The notes below the pieces were generated by a model. It saw only the letters and a program-made list of their open reading frames with translations. It made no database searches and was not told the DNA's origin. The position numbers and the translations under genes are program-made. Positions 1 through 5,783 of a stretch of DNA of 36,232 nt are shown piece by piece. Numbering within the stretch: position 1 is the first letter of the stretch; each line of letters begins with the position of its first letter. The stretch spans positions 373 through 36,604 of the forward strand of contig MHIE01000020.1 in NCBI GenBank assembly GCA_001817345.1, given 5' to 3'. Source of the DNA: Candidatus Buchananbacteria bacterium RIFCSPHIGHO2_01_FULL_44_11 (lineage in GTDB: Bacteria; Patescibacteriota; Patescibacteriia; Buchananbacterales; UBA6539).

Positions 1-61
1 GTGAAAGTTTTGAGTACATTTTGCAATATTCAACGTTAAACTGTTAAAATCGTGGCACATC

Positions 62-137
62 GCACAACACGGCATATCCGGTTCCGCTTCGCTCCACCCA
101 AATGCTTCGCACTTCAGATGATGCCGATACGTTAGGT
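62..137 (+). other. attC site A
   Basis: Inverse core GCACAAC (62-68) and core GTTAGGT (131-137, a perfect GTTRRRY). Inner arms GGCAT and ATGCC pair next to the cores, with spacers AC and GATAC. The variable middle carries CTCCACCCAAATG at 92-104. It closes a cassette that begins outside the window; a frame ending in TAA at 45-47 could be the tail of that cassette's gene, but too little is visible to call it. Confidence 0.8.
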
Positions 138-531
138 GAAATTGTGCTAATATAAAAATAATTAAATAACTAATTTATGATGAGCTTAGTCTTATTCACA
201 TTTGGTTTTATCTTTGTAGCCGGTGCTACACTGAGTCTACTAGTTGATGCTTTCCATTGGGGCTGGTCGGTTTTAATTTATATATTAGTTACTGCACTTA
301 TACTTATTAAAATAAAACAAAAAAATAGCACCGGCGGTAAAAAAATAGCAACTTTATTTATTTTTATACTAGGATTTATCGTGGCCATGGTCATACTATT
401 TATAGTTTATATTCTTATCTTTGGCACCGGCTCACTCCTTAGTGATACTTAAGAAGAATTAATCAGCGCAACCACACCTAACACGGTTTTAGCGAAATAC
501 CGCAAAGCGTGACATCGCCAAAACCGTTCCG
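132..531 (+). mobile_element. Gene cassette 1
   Basis: Bounded by the core of site A and site B. Start core GTTAGGTG and end inverse core CACCTAAC are perfect reverse complements (8 of 8). It contains one ORF (177-452), 45 bases after the cassette start. Confidence 0.82.
177..452 (+). CDS. Cassette 1: small multi-pass membrane protein, unknown function
   Basis: A 91-residue, very hydrophobic protein. Three likely membrane segments are visible: about residues 3-23, 27-44 and 58-82, with a short Lys-rich loop (IKIKQKNSTGGKK) between the second and third. No family is recognised. The ORF fills most of cassette 1 and reads in the array direction; its stop is 24 bases before the inverse core of site B. 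There is no clear Shine-Dalgarno; the start has two adjacent ATG codons and either could be used. Expression would depend on an upstream array promoter or a cassette-borne one that I cannot identify. Small hydrophobic proteins are common among cassette genes of unknown role. Confidence 0.65.
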   Translation: MMSLVLFTFGFIFVAGATLSLLVDAFHWGWSVLIYILVTALILIKIKQKNSTGGKKIATLFIFILGFIVAMVILFIVYILIFGTGSLLSDT

Positions 532-537
532 TTGTGC
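476..537 (+). other. attC site B
   Basis: Inverse core ACCTAAC (476-482, perfect RYYYAAC) and core GTTGTGC (531-537). The inner stem is clear: CGGTTTT pairs with AAAACCG and, beyond one extra base, GCGA with TCGC. The spacer is AC on the left. At 62 bp this is the shortest site of the array. Confidence 0.85.
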
Positions 538-898
538 GAAATTTAAGAACTTTATAACTAACAACACAAATTTATGGCAGAAAAAAAACAGTTTAATAAA
601 ACTTCAAAAATTTTGCTTATTATTGCCGTTGTCTTTTACGGAGCACAATTTTTTACACGACCATACGTGGGTGATACGGCATCACTATTTGGATACTTGG
701 GCGGTTTTTTTACTTTAATTGCTATAATTCAATATTTTAGAAGTAAACCAAATAGTAAGAGTTCTTAAACTTCGTACAACACCGAATATACGGCTACGAT
801 AAAATTCCTTTTTTACACAACATTAAAGAGCTGAATTTTATCTCCACCAAAATTTTTCTACGCCTCAGGCTCCGAAAAACTTCGTATATTCGGATACG
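532..898 (+). mobile_element. Gene cassette 2
   Basis: Lies between the cores of sites B and C. Start core GTTGTGCGAA and end inverse core TTCGTACAAC are complementary at 9 of 10 positions (the exception can be a G-T pair). One ORF (574-768). Confidence 0.82.
574..768 (+). CDS. Cassette 2: small two-segment membrane protein, unknown function
   Basis: A 64-residue protein with a basic N-terminus (MAEKKQFNKTSK), a hydrophobic segment at about residues 13-28 and a second at about 38-54, ending in a short basic tail (FRSKPNSKSS). The ATG is 42 bases after the cassette boundary and the stop only 5 bases before the inverse core of site C, the tight packing typical of a cassette gene. An overlapping frame from 509 starts inside attC site B and is rejected. 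No family recognised. Confidence 0.62.
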   Translation: MAEKKQFNKTSKILLIIAVVFYGAQFFTRPYVGDTASLFGYLGGFFTLIAIIQYFRSKPNSKSS

Positions 899-904
899 TT
901 GTCG
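774..904 (+). other. attC site C
   Basis: Inverse core GTACAAC (774-780), core GTTGTCG (898-904). The inner arms CGAATATACG and CGTATATTCG are perfect complements over 10 bases, with spacers AC and GATAC as in site A. At 131 bp it is the longest site; the middle carries CTCCACCAAAATT at 842-854. Confidence 0.88.
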
Positions 905-974
905 GAAATATTGTTCTTTGACAGCAAAATACTTTTAGAGGGTGTAAGCCTAAATTAAAAAAGGAGAGATAACC

Positions 975-1154
975 ATGCTTAACTGGTTACGTCCCAAGAT
1001 TGGTTATTTTGGAGTATTGCTAATGATTGTAGCTGGAGTTTGGGGGATCAACACACCACCAGATAATATTCCAGCTATTGCATTACTCCTTACAGGAGGA
1101 TTACTTGCAATTCTGCAAATGCAGATCGGTTTCACACCGAGAAAAAAAACATGA
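975..1154 (+). CDS. Cassette 3: 59-aa hydrophobic protein
   Basis: A short gene with the best ribosome binding site of the array (AAGGAGAG at 961-968, 6 bases before the ATG). The protein starts MLNWLRPKIGYFG and has two hydrophobic segments (about residues 9-25 and 33-50), ending in a basic tail (FTPRKKT). The longer frames overlapping it on both strands have no ribosome binding site. No family recognised. The strong binding site and position inside a cassette support translation. Confidence 0.6.
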   Translation: MLNWLRPKIGYFGVLLMIVAGVWGINTPPDNIPAIALLLTGGLLAILQMQIGFTPRKKT

Positions 1155-1160
1155 CAATAC

Positions 1161-1195
1161 TTGGGAAGAAGCGTCTTTAACAACCTTCTTCCCAA
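1161..1195 (+). other. Stem-loop after cassette 3 gene
   Basis: TTGGGAAGAAG (1161-1171) and CTTCTTCCCAA (1185-1195) form a perfect 11-bp stem with a 13-base loop, 6 bases after the stop of the 59-aa gene. No T-run follows on either side, so a terminator is unproven; it may protect the mRNA end. Confidence 0.6.
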
Positions 1196-1245
1196 CCCCC
1201 TCTAAAAGTATTTTGTTAAAAAGAAAAAATCAAGAACAATTCATC

Positions 1246-1322
1246 CGACAACACGGTTTAAGCGCAATTGCTTACTTGGCAGACATTTGAACGCAACTGA
1301 CGCCAAAACCGATGCGTTGTCC
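1246..1322 (+). other. attC site D
   Basis: Inverse core CGACAAC (1246-1252), core GTTGTCC (1316-1322). Inner arms CGGTTT and AAACCG, plus AGCG/CGC(C), with spacers AC and ATGC. The left arm resembles that of site B. Confidence 0.83.
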
Positions 1323-2111
1323 GAAATTCAAAAAATCATTCTATGAATGTAAAAATTCTAGAGCTGATATCTGGCGCCCAAAAGGCTACCGGATTAACTG
1401 TTATTATCGATGTATTTCGCGCTTTTTCTACAGCATGTTATGTTGTTAATAATGGGGCCGAACGGATTATTCCAGTCGGAGACATTGACAGTGCTTACGA
1501 CATAAAACGAAGTAACCCAAGTTACGTACTAATTGGCGAGAGAAAAGGAATGAAACCTCCGAATTTTGACCATGGTAATTCGCCTGCACAAATCGAACAC
1601 GAAAGTTTTGACAAGAAGACAGTTATCCAAACAACCTCGGCTGGTACTCAAGGAATTGATCAGGCGAAAAAAGCCGATCAAATCATTACGGGTAGCTTCG
1701 TAAATGCCGGGGCGATTGTTAAGTACATCAACTCACAAAATCCTAAAACAGTTTCGTTGGTTGCTATGGGCAGTGCCGGTATTCACATAGAAGATGAAGA
1801 TACATTGTGCGCGAAATACATAAAAAATGAACTGGAAGGGAAAATGAACGATTTTAAACAAATAGTTGATCATCTCAGAGGTTACAGAAGTGCACAAAAG
1901 TTCTTCGATGACACCAAGGAATGGGCGCCGGCCAGGGACTTTGATTTATGCATGACGGTTAATAAGTTTAATTTTGTATTAAAAGTACAGAAGGAAATAA
2001 AATATTCTTACTTGAAAAAAATAGATGTTTAGTAATTAATATTTTTTGAACTTCGGACAACAGCGTCTATCCGCCACTCCACTTCGTTCCGCAGCGCATG
2101 AGACGCAAAAG
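1317..2111 (+). mobile_element. Gene cassette 4 (ComB-like gene)
   Basis: Start core GTTGTCCGAA and end inverse core TTCGGACAAC are perfect complements (10 of 10), the strongest match in the array. It carries the only enzyme-sized gene among the cassettes. Confidence 0.85.
1343..2032 (+). CDS. Cassette 4: ComB-like 2-phosphosulfolactate phosphatase family protein
   Basis: A 229-residue protein. Recognisable ComB-family blocks are VIIDVFRAFSTAC (about residues 20-32) and TTSAGTQG (about 97-104), followed by an ITGSFVNA-type segment. Known members are Mg-dependent acid phosphatases; ComB of methanogens removes phosphate from 2-phosphosulfolactate in coenzyme M synthesis, but bacterial homologues occur without that pathway, so the substrate here is unknown. 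Length is close to the family norm. The ATG is 26 bases after the cassette boundary and the stop 22 bases before the inverse core of site E. Nothing in the window suggests coenzyme M or sulfolactate metabolism. I am fairly sure of the family, not of the reaction. Confidence 0.8.
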   Translation: MNVKILELISGAQKATGLTVIIDVFRAFSTACYVVNNGAERIIPVGDIDSAYDIKRSNPSYVLIGERKGMKPPNFDHGNSPAQIEHESFDKKTVIQTTSAGTQGIDQAKKADQIITGSFVNAGAIVKYINSQNPKTVSLVAMGSAGIHIEDEDTLCAKYIKNELEGKMNDFKQIVDHLRGYRSAQKFFDDTKEWAPARDFDLCMTVNKFNFVLKVQKEIKYSYLKKIDV

Positions 2112-2117
2112 TTATAT
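2055..2117 (+). other. attC site E
   Basis: Inverse core GGACAAC (2055-2061), core GTTATAT (2111-2117). Inner arms GCGTCT and AGACGC; the loop carries CCGCCACTCCACTTCG. The core GTTATAT departs from GTTRRRY at one base. Confidence 0.78.
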
Positions 2118-2712
2118 TCAATTCAGGCAGCTCGCTACCGTGTGTCAAATAGCTAATTTTATATACTTAAATCTTAATGTCTTAATATGGAGAAAAATAC
2201 GAACAAATTTATATATTGGACACCAAGGGTGCTGTCAATTCTACTTATCGTCTTTTTAGCGATATTCTCCTTGGATGTTTTTGATGGTGATTATGGCTTC
2301 TGGGGAACAGTATTGGGATTGCTTATTCATAATATTCCTTCTTTTATTCTGTTTGGTATTCTAATCATCTCTTGGAAATATGAGATGGTTGGCGGAGTTG
2401 CTTTTATTCTCGCAGGCATGTCATATATGGTATTTACCGTTGTAAGAGAATCCGTCGAGCCGTGGTATATGTTACTCATTTTGTCTCTAATACTTGTAGT
2501 GCCAGCATTTCTTATAGGAATTTTATTTATAGTTGGGTGGTTCAAAAAGAAAAAAATAGCGCGAGCTGCCTGAACTCAAAAATTTTGCTTTGGAACGTTG
2601 CACTAAATTTTTGCCCTTCGGGGAATATAACAAGGAGTATAAGGTTACGAAGTCTTGCAGACTTCTCCACCCAAATTACTCCCGTTGGTCGCAACTTCTC
2701 ATATCCCTAACG
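2112..2712 (+). mobile_element. Gene cassette 5
   Basis: Start core GTTATATTC and end inverse core GAATATAAC are perfect complements (9 of 9), even though these boxes differ from those of neighbouring cassettes. One ORF (2187-2573). Confidence 0.83.
2187..2573 (+). CDS. Cassette 5: four-segment membrane protein, unknown function
   Basis: A 128-residue integral membrane protein with likely spans at about residues 13-29, 35-60, 67-84 and 92-117, and a basic end (WFKKKKIARAA). Acidic Asp residues (LDVFDGDYGF) lie between spans 1 and 2. No family recognised; it resembles generic small DUF-type membrane proteins of Patescibacteria. The ATG is 75 bases after the cassette start and no strong ribosome binding site is seen. 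Frames overlapping it on either strand (2327-2545 minus, 2462-2710 plus) are shadows, the second running into attC site F. Confidence 0.65.
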   Translation: MEKNTNKFIYWTPRVLSILLIVFLAIFSLDVFDGDYGFWGTVLGLLIHNIPSFILFGILIISWKYEMVGGVAFILAGMSYMVFTVVRESVEPWYMLLILSLILVVPAFLIGILFIVGWFKKKKIARAA

Positions 2713-2718
2713 TTACAT
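2625..2718 (+). other. attC site F
   Basis: Inverse core ATATAAC (2625-2631), core GTTACAT (2712-2718). The inner stem is less regular than in other sites (AAGG/CCTA, TAT/ATA and ACGAAGT/ACTTC parts pair). The middle contains CTCCACCCAAATT at 2665-2677, shared with sites A and C. Confidence 0.72.
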
Positions 2719-3118
2719 GAAATGCAATTTTTTTATCAGTAATTAAAAAAATATGGAAAAAATTTACAAACAATGTCAGTCGTGCGGCATGCCACTAAAA
2801 AAAGATGAAAAGGGAGGTGGCTCAGAAAAAGATGGTTCATTAAGTAAAATGTACTGCAGTTCTTGCTATCAAGATGGTGCTTTTAAAAATCCACAGATGA
2901 CTTTGCGAGAGATACAGAAGCTTGTTGACGATGTTTTAAAAAACGAAATGGGGTGGTGGAAAATTTTTAGGTGGCTAGCTGTAAAGCAGATACCAAAACT
3001 TGCGAGGTGGAAAACAAATTAAAAGAATTGCACATCATATAACACTCGATATCCGCAAGGGCTAAAGCCACATTTCAATTTCGTTTCACTTCATTGAAAC
3101 ATCGGATATCGAAAAACG
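2713..3118 (+). mobile_element. Gene cassette 6 (zinc-ribbon gene), last of the array
   Basis: Start core GTTACATG and end inverse core CATATAAC are complementary at 7 of 8 positions. One ORF (2753-3022). Confidence 0.8.
2753..3022 (+). CDS. Cassette 6: small zinc-ribbon protein
   Basis: An 89-residue protein with two Cys pairs, CQSCG at about residues 8-12 and CSSCY at about 35-39, separated by a Lys/Gly-rich segment. This is the layout of the putative zinc ribbon family zf-ribbon_2 (PF12674). Members are stand-alone or fused to regulators, and their function is mostly unknown; binding of one Zn ion by the four Cys is expected. The C-terminal half is helical and basic, with no enzyme motif. 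The ATG lies 40 bases after the cassette start, and the stop 14 bases before the inverse core of site G. Confidence 0.75.
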   Translation: MEKIYKQCQSCGMPLKKDEKGGGSEKDGSLSKMYCSSCYQDGAFKNPQMTLREIQKLVDDVLKNEMGWWKIFRWLAVKQIPKLARWKTN

Positions 3119-3124
3119 TTGTCC
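3037..3124 (+). other. attC site G (right end of the array)
   Basis: Inverse core ATATAAC (3037-3043), core GTTGTCC (3118-3124). The inner arms TCGATATCCG and CGGATATCGA are perfect over 10 bases; a second stem TTTCAAT/ATTGAAA lies inside. No partner inverse core (GGCGGACAAC) appears further right, so the array ends here. Confidence 0.87.
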
Positions 3125-3204
3125 GCCATAAAATTTTATTTTTTCCTACATAATAACCTGATTAACAACCACTTTCTAAATAACTCTTTATTAGTAAAAA
3201 TACT

Positions 3205-3972
3205 ATGACCCTAGACGATGAACAAAGAATTCCCCCGGATGCTGCGGAATGGCATCCTCCCGAAGAAGAGCCAGAGCATGAAAGAATCCCTGCAGCACAG
3301 GAATTGGAAACTCAGCATAATGTTCCAGAGGAAAATAAAAATCTACCCGCATTACCTACCGAAAAGGTTCGACCAACGGCAAAAAATCCAATTGAAGAAG
3401 TCACGGTTGGGCTCTGGCAAACACTCGGTCACTATGATGCTCCAACACGAATCATCCTGACCTTAAAAGATGGAAGTACCGCAGAAATGCCATGGGAGCA
3501 GGCCGAGCCATTATTGCCCCCGGAATTTCGGACCGCCCGAGAACTTGGGCAATCGGCACGCCAACTTGAACGAAAAATAAATCATTTGATGACCGCTATT
3601 CGCCAGGAAACATATGTAATGCAAGGTAGCGGAGGCCTTAAGGGTGGTTTACGCCGGCTGGTTGGTATGGAGTATCGGCCGCTTCAATATCTTAATACTT
3701 TAGCAGAACTAGCTGATGAGGTTGATAAAATAGCACAAGAAAGCTTTCTTGAGTTACGACAAATGACAAACATTCATGGAACTTACCAAGATAGAATTCC
3801 CGAACTCACTTCAAGTCTTGAGCTTTGCCAACAGAAACTAGAAGAAATTGTTGCCAGTATATCTGGGGATCTACCAAAAGTTCAAGATACCTATGACTTA
3901 TACCAACGAAAATTATTGGATCGAAAATCTTTAAAAAGTGACAGCCATGCTAAGTTACCTAAACCCGAATAG
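3205..3972 (+). CDS. Hypothetical coiled-coil protein next to the array end
   Basis: A 255-residue soluble protein. The first 60 residues are acidic and Pro/Glu-rich and probably disordered. A short predicted beta segment follows (RIILTLKDGSTAEMPWEQ, about 82-99), then a long helical, coiled-coil-like C-terminal half with many Leu/Glu/Gln. There is no signal peptide, membrane span or catalytic motif that I recognise. The ATG is 80 bases after attC site G and no attC follows the gene, so it appears to be fixed chromosomal sequence, not a cassette. An overlapping frame from 3218 is a shadow. It may begin a transcription unit with the Nudix and lipoprotein genes, 63 bases apart. Confidence 0.7.
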   Translation: MTLDDEQRIPPDAAEWHPPEEEPEHERIPAAQELETQHNVPEENKNLPALPTEKVRPTAKNPIEEVTVGLWQTLGHYDAPTRIILTLKDGSTAEMPWEQAEPLLPPEFRTARELGQSARQLERKINHLMTAIRQETYVMQGSGGLKGGLRRLVGMEYRPLQYLNTLAELADEVDKIAQESFLELRQMTNIHGTYQDRIPELTSSLELCQQKLEEIVASISGDLPKVQDTYDLYQRKLLDRKSLKSDSHAKLPKPE

Positions 3973-4035: not shown

Positions 4036-4449
4036 ATGGATAAAACTCAATTCACAAAATTTGTTAACAGCGCCGGCGGCATAATTGTAAACCAAAAAAA
4101 TCAGGTGGCCATAATTAAAATGCCTGACAATGACTGGGGATTCCCCAAGGGCAGCATTGATGAAGGTGGAAGCCATCTGACAGCAGCCAAACGGGAAGTT
4201 TATGAAGAAACCGGTCTGGCAGACTTAAAAATGGTCAAGGAATTTGAACCGTATCAAAGACCAAATGGCTCCGATCCCCAGGAACTAAAGACTATTTACA
4301 TGTTCTTATTTAGGACTAGTCAGGAAGAACTGAAGTCAATTGAGCCTGACGTGATTGAAGCCAAATGGGTTAATAAAGACAAGGTCACTACCGTATTAAC
4401 CTACCCAAAAGACATAGAATTTTTTGAAAAAATAAAAAGTGAACTATGA
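4036..4449 (+). CDS. Nudix hydrolase (diadenosine-polyphosphate/MutT type)
   Basis: A 137-residue Nudix protein. The Nudix helix spans about residues 39-61, with the catalytic, metal-binding REVYEE (53-58) followed by TGL. One departure is visible: where the box normally has the first Glu (GX5E), residue 45 is Gly. The WGFPKGSIDEG segment before it is typical of diadenosine polyphosphate hydrolases and related MutT-like enzymes that cleave nucleoside diphosphates linked to another moiety; the actual substrate cannot be told. The stop overlaps the start of the lipoprotein gene (ATGA), so the two are translationally coupled. Confidence 0.88.
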   Translation: MDKTQFTKFVNSAGGIIVNQKNQVAIIKMPDNDWGFPKGSIDEGGSHLTAAKREVYEETGLADLKMVKEFEPYQRPNGSDPQELKTIYMFLFRTSQEELKSIEPDVIEAKWVNKDKVTTVLTYPKDIEFFEKIKSEL

Positions 4450-5783
4450 AAAAAGCAATTTTAATCGTCCTGGTCGGAGTTGGTCTAGCCTTGGTTGGAT
4501 GCATTAAACAGCCGTCGGCGGTCAATCAAAACACTAACCAACCGGCAATAAATCAAAACCTAAACGTTGAAAAACCACCGATTATTGACCATTTTGCTTG
4601 CAGTGATTACTGCCCCGGACCCAAAGAGCAATATATGGTAAAAATATATCAGGGTGTCACTGACCAAAAAGAATGCCGGCAATTGGGCGGCACGCCGTAT
4701 ACTTACTACGGCTGGGGCGAATACCATATTTGTCTGGCCGAGAATAAGGGCTCTTCAGCTACCTGGCAAACATACCAAAACCAGAAATATGGATTTGAAA
4801 TCAAATATCCTCAAGGCTGGCAAATGCTCCTGGAAATGGACGACATTAGTCGAGTTTCTTTTGGCCAAACCAAAAATATAGGGAGCAATGGCTATGACGG
4901 CGAATGGTTTGTCTTTATCTACAACCAATCCCAGAAAACCGTAGAAGCACTGATCAAAGATATGGGTGATCAATTCGGCGAGCAAAGACGTGAAAAAAGG
5001 GAAAATATAATAGTTAACGGCCTGCCGGCCCTTAAAGTTACCGTAACTACAATAACCATTCCGGATTGGATTTATCAATCTGTATTTATCGAACAGGCCG
5101 GTAAGATTTATGTGATTAGCAATGGCGCCGTAGCAAACGATTTATTTGATGAGTTTTATAACAGTTTTAAAATTACATCAATAACCGCTGCCCCGTCAGT
5201 CAAGACTTTAACCTACTTAGTTTCTAACGAAGCGGAAGCAAAATATTGCAATGGCGCCGACATGGATAGTGACGGCTTTAGAAAAACTATCACTACTCAA
5301 ATTACTACCGACACGCCCATAGACAATATGACGATCACTGAGTTAGCCAAAGCCACGGTTGTCGCCGCAACCACCGGCATGTGCCAAGAAGTTTTAAAAC
5401 AAAACGATCTGCGAGTGGAGGGTGATACTGTTTACATTGCGCCAATTGATGCCTGGGCCGGTGTGTCAATCACAATGTGCAGCTGCATACCGGAGATGGA
5501 CGTAAATCTCCTGCGCTTGCCGGGCATAAAAAAAGTGGTCCACGGAAGCGCTTTAAACCAACCTATCCAAAATAACACTAGATACTGCATAATAGATAGT
5601 GATTGCGTTGCTGCAACGTGCTGTCATCCAACCGCCGCGGTGAACAAAGAAAATCAGCCTGACTGCCAAGGCACTATGTGTACCCTAGAATGCCAAGGGC
5701 CTCTTGACTGTGGTGCCGGCAAGATAATCTGCGAAAACAATCTTTGCACCATAAAATCAAATCTGCCTACTACGGCAGAGTGA
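4446..5783 (+). CDS. Secreted Cys-rich lipoprotein
   Basis: A 445-residue protein with a clear lipoprotein signal: basic start, hydrophobic core and lipobox LVGC with the acceptor Cys at residue 19. An Asn/Gln/Pro linker follows, then a Cys-containing segment (DYCPGPKEQY). A region from about residue 108 starts with WQTYQNQKYGFEIKYPQGW, a Tyr-Phe-Tyr-Pro-Trp pattern common in extracellular PsbP-like domains of Patescibacteria. The last 70 residues hold many Cys pairs (CCHP, CTLECQ, CGAGKIIC), probably disulfides. It is presumably anchored outside the membrane. It overlaps the upstream Nudix gene by 4 bases. Exact function unknown. Confidence 0.8.
   Translation: MKKAILIVLVGVGLALVGCIKQPSAVNQNTNQPAINQNLNVEKPPIIDHFACSDYCPGPKEQYMVKIYQGVTDQKECRQLGGTPYTYYGWGEYHICLAENKGSSATWQTYQNQKYGFEIKYPQGWQMLLEMDDISRVSFGQTKNIGSNGYDGEWFVFIYNQSQKTVEALIKDMGDQFGEQRREKRENIIVNGLPALKVTVTTITIPDWIYQSVFIEQAGKIYVISNGAVANDLFDEFYNSFKITSITAAPSVKTLTYLVSNEAEAKYCNGADMDSDGFRKTITTQITTDTPIDNMTITELAKATVVAATTGMCQEVLKQNDLRVEGDTVYIAPIDAWAGVSITMCSCIPEMDVNLLRLPGIKKVVHGSALNQPIQNNTRYCIIDSDCVAATCCHPTAAVNKENQPDCQGTMCTLECQGPLDCGAGKIICENNLCTIKSNLPTTAE

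Follow-up and report, generated by a model that had tools for sequence, protein, structure and literature searches.

In chromosomal (sedentary) integrons such as that of Vibrio cholerae, a divergent integrase gene and an attI site are accompanied by single-gene cassettes of the same orientation, each cassette carries at its 3' end an attC site whose R'' arm matches the start of the same cassette, and a complete attC closes the array distally. According to the literature, integron integrases (IntI) cannot capture cassettes without their "additional domain" I2, which occurs in no other protein (PMC7790495), and software in standard use needs it to call an integron integrase (PMC9668308). In the complex of the V. 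cholerae enzyme VchIntIA, residues Q145, W157, K209, Y210 and W219 contact the extrahelical base G20'', and P232, H240 and H241 contact T12'' (PMC3053210). The case presented here concerns a window of 36,232 nucleotides (nt), the whole stretch of DNA that was analysed, from Candidatus Buchananbacteria bacterium RIFCSPHIGHO2_01_FULL_44_11 (contig MHIE01000020.1, here C20), a member of the Patescibacteria or candidate phyla radiation (CPR), which begins with an array of cassettes. With considerable confidence, we interpret this array as the distal portion of a chromosomal integron that belongs to a variant kind present in many Patescibacteria. Archaeal integrons are similar in that attC arrays occur in unexpected lineages, mostly as clusters of attC sites lacking integron integrases (CALINs) on fragmented metagenome-assembled genomes (MAGs), but their integrases are recognised by, and keep, the IntI-specific additional domain (Ghaly et al. 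2022, PMC9668308).

Positions 1-3126 of the window contain seven attC-type sites (S1-S7) and six complete single-gene cassettes, all on the + strand, with open reading frames (ORFs) and sites alternating and one gene per cassette. An initial annotation, made from the letters alone, had proposed exactly this number of sites and cassettes in one orientation for positions 1-3124, and its boundary was right within a few bases. All seven sites have the same layout: AAC and A precede an inner stem whose two halves enclose a loop, and about 4 nt then lead to GTT. The covariance-model check that had been suggested supported the array: a model (R3) trained on 16 sites, all from other genomes and with no sequence of the window, matched six sites with E-values of 4e-8 to 1.7e-4 and S5 with 0.11. 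Apart from S1-S7, there was no match at E<0.2 in the 36-kb window, the sole extra match being a reverse-strand mirror of S2 (E=0.25), and an Rfam scan of the window returned no matching family. The features are, in order (aa, amino acids; E-values of attC sites refer to R3; fractions are paired positions of the inverted repeat between cassette start and end):

1..39, + strand: 3' tail of the ACT-domain gene (PF13840) of cassette 0; its remainder lies left of the window, across a scaffold gap
60..139, + strand: attC S1, end of cassette 0; AAC-end/GTT-start 68/131; E=4.6e-8
131..530, + strand: cassette 1; ORF 177-452, 91-aa membrane-type protein without Pfam match; 15/20
474..539, + strand: attC S2; AAC-end/GTT-start 482/531; E=1.7e-4
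531..897, + strand: cassette 2; ORF 574-768, 64 aa; 18/20
772..906, + strand: attC S3; AAC-end/GTT-start 780/898; E=4.4e-8
898..1315, + strand: cassette 3; ORF 975-1154, 59 aa; 17/20, plus an internal complementary stretch of 36 nt
1244..1324, + strand: attC S4; AAC-end/GTT-start 1252/1316; E=1.4e-5
1316..2110, + strand: cassette 4; ORF 1343-2032, 229 aa, 2-phosphosulfolactate phosphatase family PF04029 (Pfam E=4e-51); 19/20
2053..2119, + strand: attC S5, the weakest site; AAC-end/GTT-start 2061/2111; R' is GTTATATT, preceded by AAAA; E=0.11
2111..2711, + strand: cassette 5; ORF 2187-2573, 128 aa, DUF7670 PF24709 (Pfam E=6e-32); inverted repeat 2117-2135/2561-2579 with an interruption of about 46 nt
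2623..2720, + strand: attC S6; AAC-end/GTT-start 2631/2712; E=4e-5
2712..3117, + strand: cassette 6; ORF 2753-3022, 89 aa, zinc ribbon PF12674 (Pfam E=5e-21); 16/20
3035..3126, + strand: attC S7, complete, distal end of the array; AAC-end/GTT-start 3043/3118; E=9e-6

The proteins of cassettes 1-3 are small and belong to no family. The ends of the cassettes were compared over 20 nt (GTT plus 17 nt at the start, the sequence with AAC at the end), with shuffles of the 3.2-kb array as a control. Five of the six cassettes pair at 19, 18, 17, 16 and 15 of the 20 positions, and the shuffled arrays contained 0.33 such pairs per array at 15, 0.06 at 16, 0.01 at 17, and none at 18 or 19. Hence, in five cases the R'' of a site can pair with the R' that opens the same cassette, as in integrons of the V. 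cholerae type. The attC of cassette 5 (2573-2734) is 87% identical over 163 nt (blastn) to positions 2494-2656 of contig L066 from a genome of another family (G252), in which the preceding gene is a different one.

The other end of such a system was found elsewhere in the same genome. On contig C15, positions 4038-4862 encode a tyrosine recombinase of 274 aa that is divergent from an attI-like GTT located 109 bp upstream of its start, and this GTT is followed by a one-gene cassette (ends pairing at 18/20), an attC, and one more R', an arrangement with the order and polarity of an integron. The leftward extension proposed for finding intI and attI yielded only 372 bp more on the array contig C20, which begins inside cassette 0, beyond an N gap, but the same assembly has integrase, attI and a cassette on C15. 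C15 and C20 probably carry opposite ends of a single array. At the integrase-proximal end there is a GTT that lacks a regular attC stem, and the distal end is a complete attC followed by chromosomal genes, which points to crossover at R', in agreement with integrons. Nine loci with this kind of integrase were examined: in eight, a GTT with a cassette-end match lies 10-116 nt upstream of the integrase gene, and in the ninth the distance is 622 nt; the attI core of several loci reads TTCGCATAA, spacer, TTATGYGAAAT. The other tyrosine recombinases of the host (on contigs C3, C6 and C13) were considered as cassette integrases and rejected, as their scores fall outside the family.

Some details of the two contigs may be added. 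Between the integrase start and attI, a perfect palindrome, CACATAACCAGGTTATGTG, is present (L015 4886-4906); it resembles two R boxes and, judged by its sequence, may be a binding site of the integrase or of a repressor. The C15 attC (L015 5296-5588) is about 290 nt long inside, and its loop carries a 60-aa membrane-type ORF (5337-5516) bounded by perfect 20-nt inverted repeats (5308-5327/5520-5539), that is, a gene within an attC loop. The scaffold N gap of C20 (G000:C20:341-372) is bordered on both sides by an identical 32 nt, an assembly artefact within the ACT gene.

The association of this integrase type with this attC type is not confined to one genome. In a sample of 380 genomes of the phylum, the short integrase type was detected in 50 and the attC type in 56 (54 genera), with both in 35; the attC type thus occurs in 35 of the 50 genomes with the integrase and in 21 of the 330 without it (Fisher p=3e-23). 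All 39 attC matches within 20 kb of an integrase gene are upstream of it and divergent; seven of these are training sites, and the other 32 all agree. Of 117 attC matches, 67 have a neighbour on the same strand within 4 kb, and none has one on the opposite strand. The genomes with both elements include some that consist of one contig (for example G128 and G317), and a Peregrinibacteria contig (L085) carries an integrase and six attCs. Two MAGs, from Firmicutes (L079) and Spirochaetes (L119), contain similar short integrases with cassette-like repeats. In a Gracilibacteria contig that carries the integrase type described here (L104), TGA is read within genes, probably as glycine.

The integrases of this type are tyrosine recombinases of 270-290 aa in which the catalytic residues R, K, H, R, H and Y are invariant. 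The C15 enzyme passes the cut-off of the NCBIfam model NF040815 (XerA / "integron integrase"; 237 bits, cut-off 220) and remains below the curated cut-off of the integron integrase model TIGR02249 (230 bits, cut-off 265), of which positions 180-229 are absent; none of the 380 genomes reaches the latter cut-off. A stretch of about 41 residues with the I2 domain is missing, which places the enzyme outside canonical IntI. The GKG and H.LRH motifs are 65-68 aa apart in this type (97 in one member, that of genome G142), compared with 106-112 aa in canonical IntI and 69-73 aa in Escherichia coli XerC/XerD. The best solved relative is VchIntIA, in which the segment 174-240 has a counterpart of only about 25 residues, and most of the VchIntIA residues that touch extrahelical bases fall in the absent stretch. 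A predicted structure of a Peregrinibacteria homologue (predicted local distance difference test score 82) likewise has 2a3v (VchIntIA) as its best fold match. XerA-type recombinases (NF040815; archaeal and Bacteroidota XerA) are alike in the family cut-off, the inter-motif length and the lack of I2, but inspection of Bacteroidota and Paenibacillus members revealed no attC arrays next to them.

Phylogenetically, IntI with I2 forms one clade (100/100), and every I2-less cassette integrase lies outside it. Secondary loss of I2 within IntI was considered and is disfavoured by this position. A quick tree united IntI with I2 and the I2-less cassette integrases against XerA (SH-like approximate likelihood ratio test 92); a careful tree gave no settled deep order, and the I2-less cassette integrases formed one group in 13% of the bootstraps. 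The common Xer of these genomes is a clade apart from the cassette integrases. This integrase type is related to both XerA and IntI and lacks the I2 additional domain. The integrase of G142 (L049 2393-3307), a genome of the same class as the host, has a full-length TIGR02249 match (235 bits) and a 32-aa insert at the exact I2 position that is, by eye, unlike I2; its nearest relative (L053) has no insert.

The integrase being without I2, the architecture of the attC differs accordingly. The initial annotation was right about an integron-type array in a Patescibacteria genome and mistaken in calling it "textbook", since attC architecture and integrase both depart from the textbook integron. A set of 22 attC sites of this type aligns gap-free except for S2, with AACA and CGTT invariant. 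The inner stem comprises 11 bp (92.6-95% paired), and the spacers are 1 and 4 nt; in canonical sites, the spacers are near 3/3 and L'' has an additional base. A generic attC scanner working with symmetric palindromes was blind to strand until the 1/4 spacing was used. The conserved outer arm is about 12 nt here versus 7 in canonical attC. There is no consistent extrahelical base on L'', in departure from the definition of canonical attC (PMC3053210), and a possible substitute for it, a bulge of 2 nt in L' that follows the inner stem, was rejected, being backed by only 7 of the 22 sites. At the cassette start, positions 11 and 12 each have an information content of about 1.4 bits, compared with 0.02 and 0.35 in canonical cassettes, and the host genome shows a conserved mismatch at position 11, where start and end disagree in every case. 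Nine inner-stem pairs show compensatory changes, with a covariation score over the 22 sites of 0.47, versus 0.16 for shuffled and at most 0.12 for slid alignments. A model of this attC type (R1) had no match in 14 genomes with canonical IntI, and a control model of nine canonical sites (R2) gave 21 matches, all at canonical loci and none at CPR loci. The attC of this type is therefore a distinct class, the models of the two classes showing no cross-recognition in either direction.

It should be noted that several points weigh against this interpretation. The training sites were picked by a scanner that demanded at least six paired inner-stem bases, so that selection leaves unaffected only columns 17-21 with their partners, and the linkage tests; outside the window set, these columns are still paired in 14-15 of 16. 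The control model R2 is narrow and misses the Acidobacteria and Cyanobium sites found by chain search. Furthermore, no attC was detected in 15 of the genomes with the integrase, and 21 genomes have the attC alone, perhaps as a result of fragmentation, weak models or CALIN-like relics, and in this assembly C15 and C20 are separate contigs.

Four other explanations were weighed. The array might come from another organism, through assembly chimerism or contamination: its GC content is 0.37 compared with 0.46 in the flank, and an N gap lies immediately left of the window. Low-GC cassettes are usual for integrons, however, and an equal drop recurs within the single contig C15, beside gatB and miaA. 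Chimerism cannot explain the pattern because independent genomes show the same integrase-attC association (34 others of the phylum, including the one-contig genomes named above), and we consider this explanation extremely unlikely. It is also very unlikely that the arrays are served by a canonical IntI with I2 from an unassembled part of the genome, the C15 recombinase being a bystander Xer. The host genome (943 kb) is indeed only about 78% complete, and the G142 protein with its full-length match and insert could be taken as a sign of such enzymes; yet the closest relative of that protein lacks the insert, the TIGR02249 cut-off was passed nowhere in the sample, the co-located attCs adjoin the I2-less type in canonical orientation without exception, and the common Xer is a separate clade.

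The two remaining explanations leave the integrase in place and question what it does. If the array were a relic (CALIN), its cassettes would have come once and would now be immobile, in keeping with the contig breaks that separate array and integrase and with S5 and S6 being the weakest or among the weaker sites. This is unlikely in view of the strong end complementarity kept in five of six cassettes, an integrase that is intact including its catalytic residues, and a near-identical attC behind a different gene in another family. An ordinary double-strand exchange of the Xer type between dif-like sites, with the attC palindrome serving another purpose, is in our view slightly less improbable, but unlikely as well. 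The best score of the recombinase is indeed that for XerA, and both the R arm (GTTRTRYGAAAT) and the core of attI are similar to an Xer core site, by comparison with E. coli dif. The pdif/dif modules are likewise genes flanked by sites for Xer-type enzymes, but they differ from the present system with its dedicated divergent integrase, attI, same-orientation cassettes and palindromic attC that are predicted to fold. Moreover, the inner stem is kept by compensatory changes, including pairs that the site search did not require, and every attC has a full stem while attI is irregular, as in integrons that use a folded attC.

With an integron of the variant kind as the preferred explanation, a mechanism can be proposed. 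The integrase would act at the GTT (R') of attI and of attC, where circular single-gene cassettes would be inserted and excised. In the circle, the end of the cassette would pair with its own start to give an R''/R' arm of about 12-20 bp, and this R arm, the 11-bp L''/L' stem and the unpaired 1/4-nt spacer would allow an attC folded from a single strand to display two recombinase-binding arms, like an Xer core site. Most likely, the integrase holds both arms, which are the outer R arm and the 11-bp inner stem, and joins the site to attI by recombination at GTT. The asymmetry of the 1/4 spacer, together with the conserved AA/TG mismatch, could set the orientation in place of extrahelical bases docked by I2. 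Cassette exchange would then be working in these cells, as had been supposed initially.

One possible evolutionary scenario, which we put forward tentatively and regard as less probable than its contrary, is that a pre-I2 state has been kept, so that cassettes with folded attC and an Xer-like integrase would be older than the I2 helix, which would have been gained later, toward canonical IntI. If this is true, I2 would be a refinement for strand choice and docking of extrahelical bases and not the invention that enabled cassette capture. A widespread integron type without I2 makes the question of integron origin directly testable. In addition, lineages with genomes of about 1 Mb, thought to be nearly closed, carry an apparent dedicated gene-capture system, which integrase searches would miss. 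A literature search, made without preprints and most subscription papers, found no description of integrons in Patescibacteria or of I2-less integrons; an aquifer survey lists integrons across MAGs by IntegronFinder, and no statement on CPR integrons was noted in it (PMC12259885).

Beyond the array, the window is chromosomal, and the first genes are:

3205..3972, + strand: first chromosomal gene beyond S7, for a 255-aa protein without Pfam match
4036-4449: NUDIX gene, next after the former

The flank further contains genes for a ThrRS-like protein, DnaE, PheT, a UvrD-type helicase, two ATP synthase-type subunits and an H+-pyrophosphatase. DnaE is 68-73% identical to the proteins of three genomes of the same family, 48-56% identical to those of named Patescibacteria with intact genes (Falkow-, Moran-, Peregrini- and Magasanikbacteria, and others), and at most 47% identical to those of other phyla. 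The chromosomal neighbour 3205-3972 was used as a synteny probe and no relatives of it were found. The gene miaA adjoins the integrase also in G385 (L156 607-1497), from another family of the order, in the orientation opposite to that on C15. Finally, a zinc-ribbon ORF adjoining the integrase of G300 (L071 6519-6761) is 45% identical to that of cassette 6.

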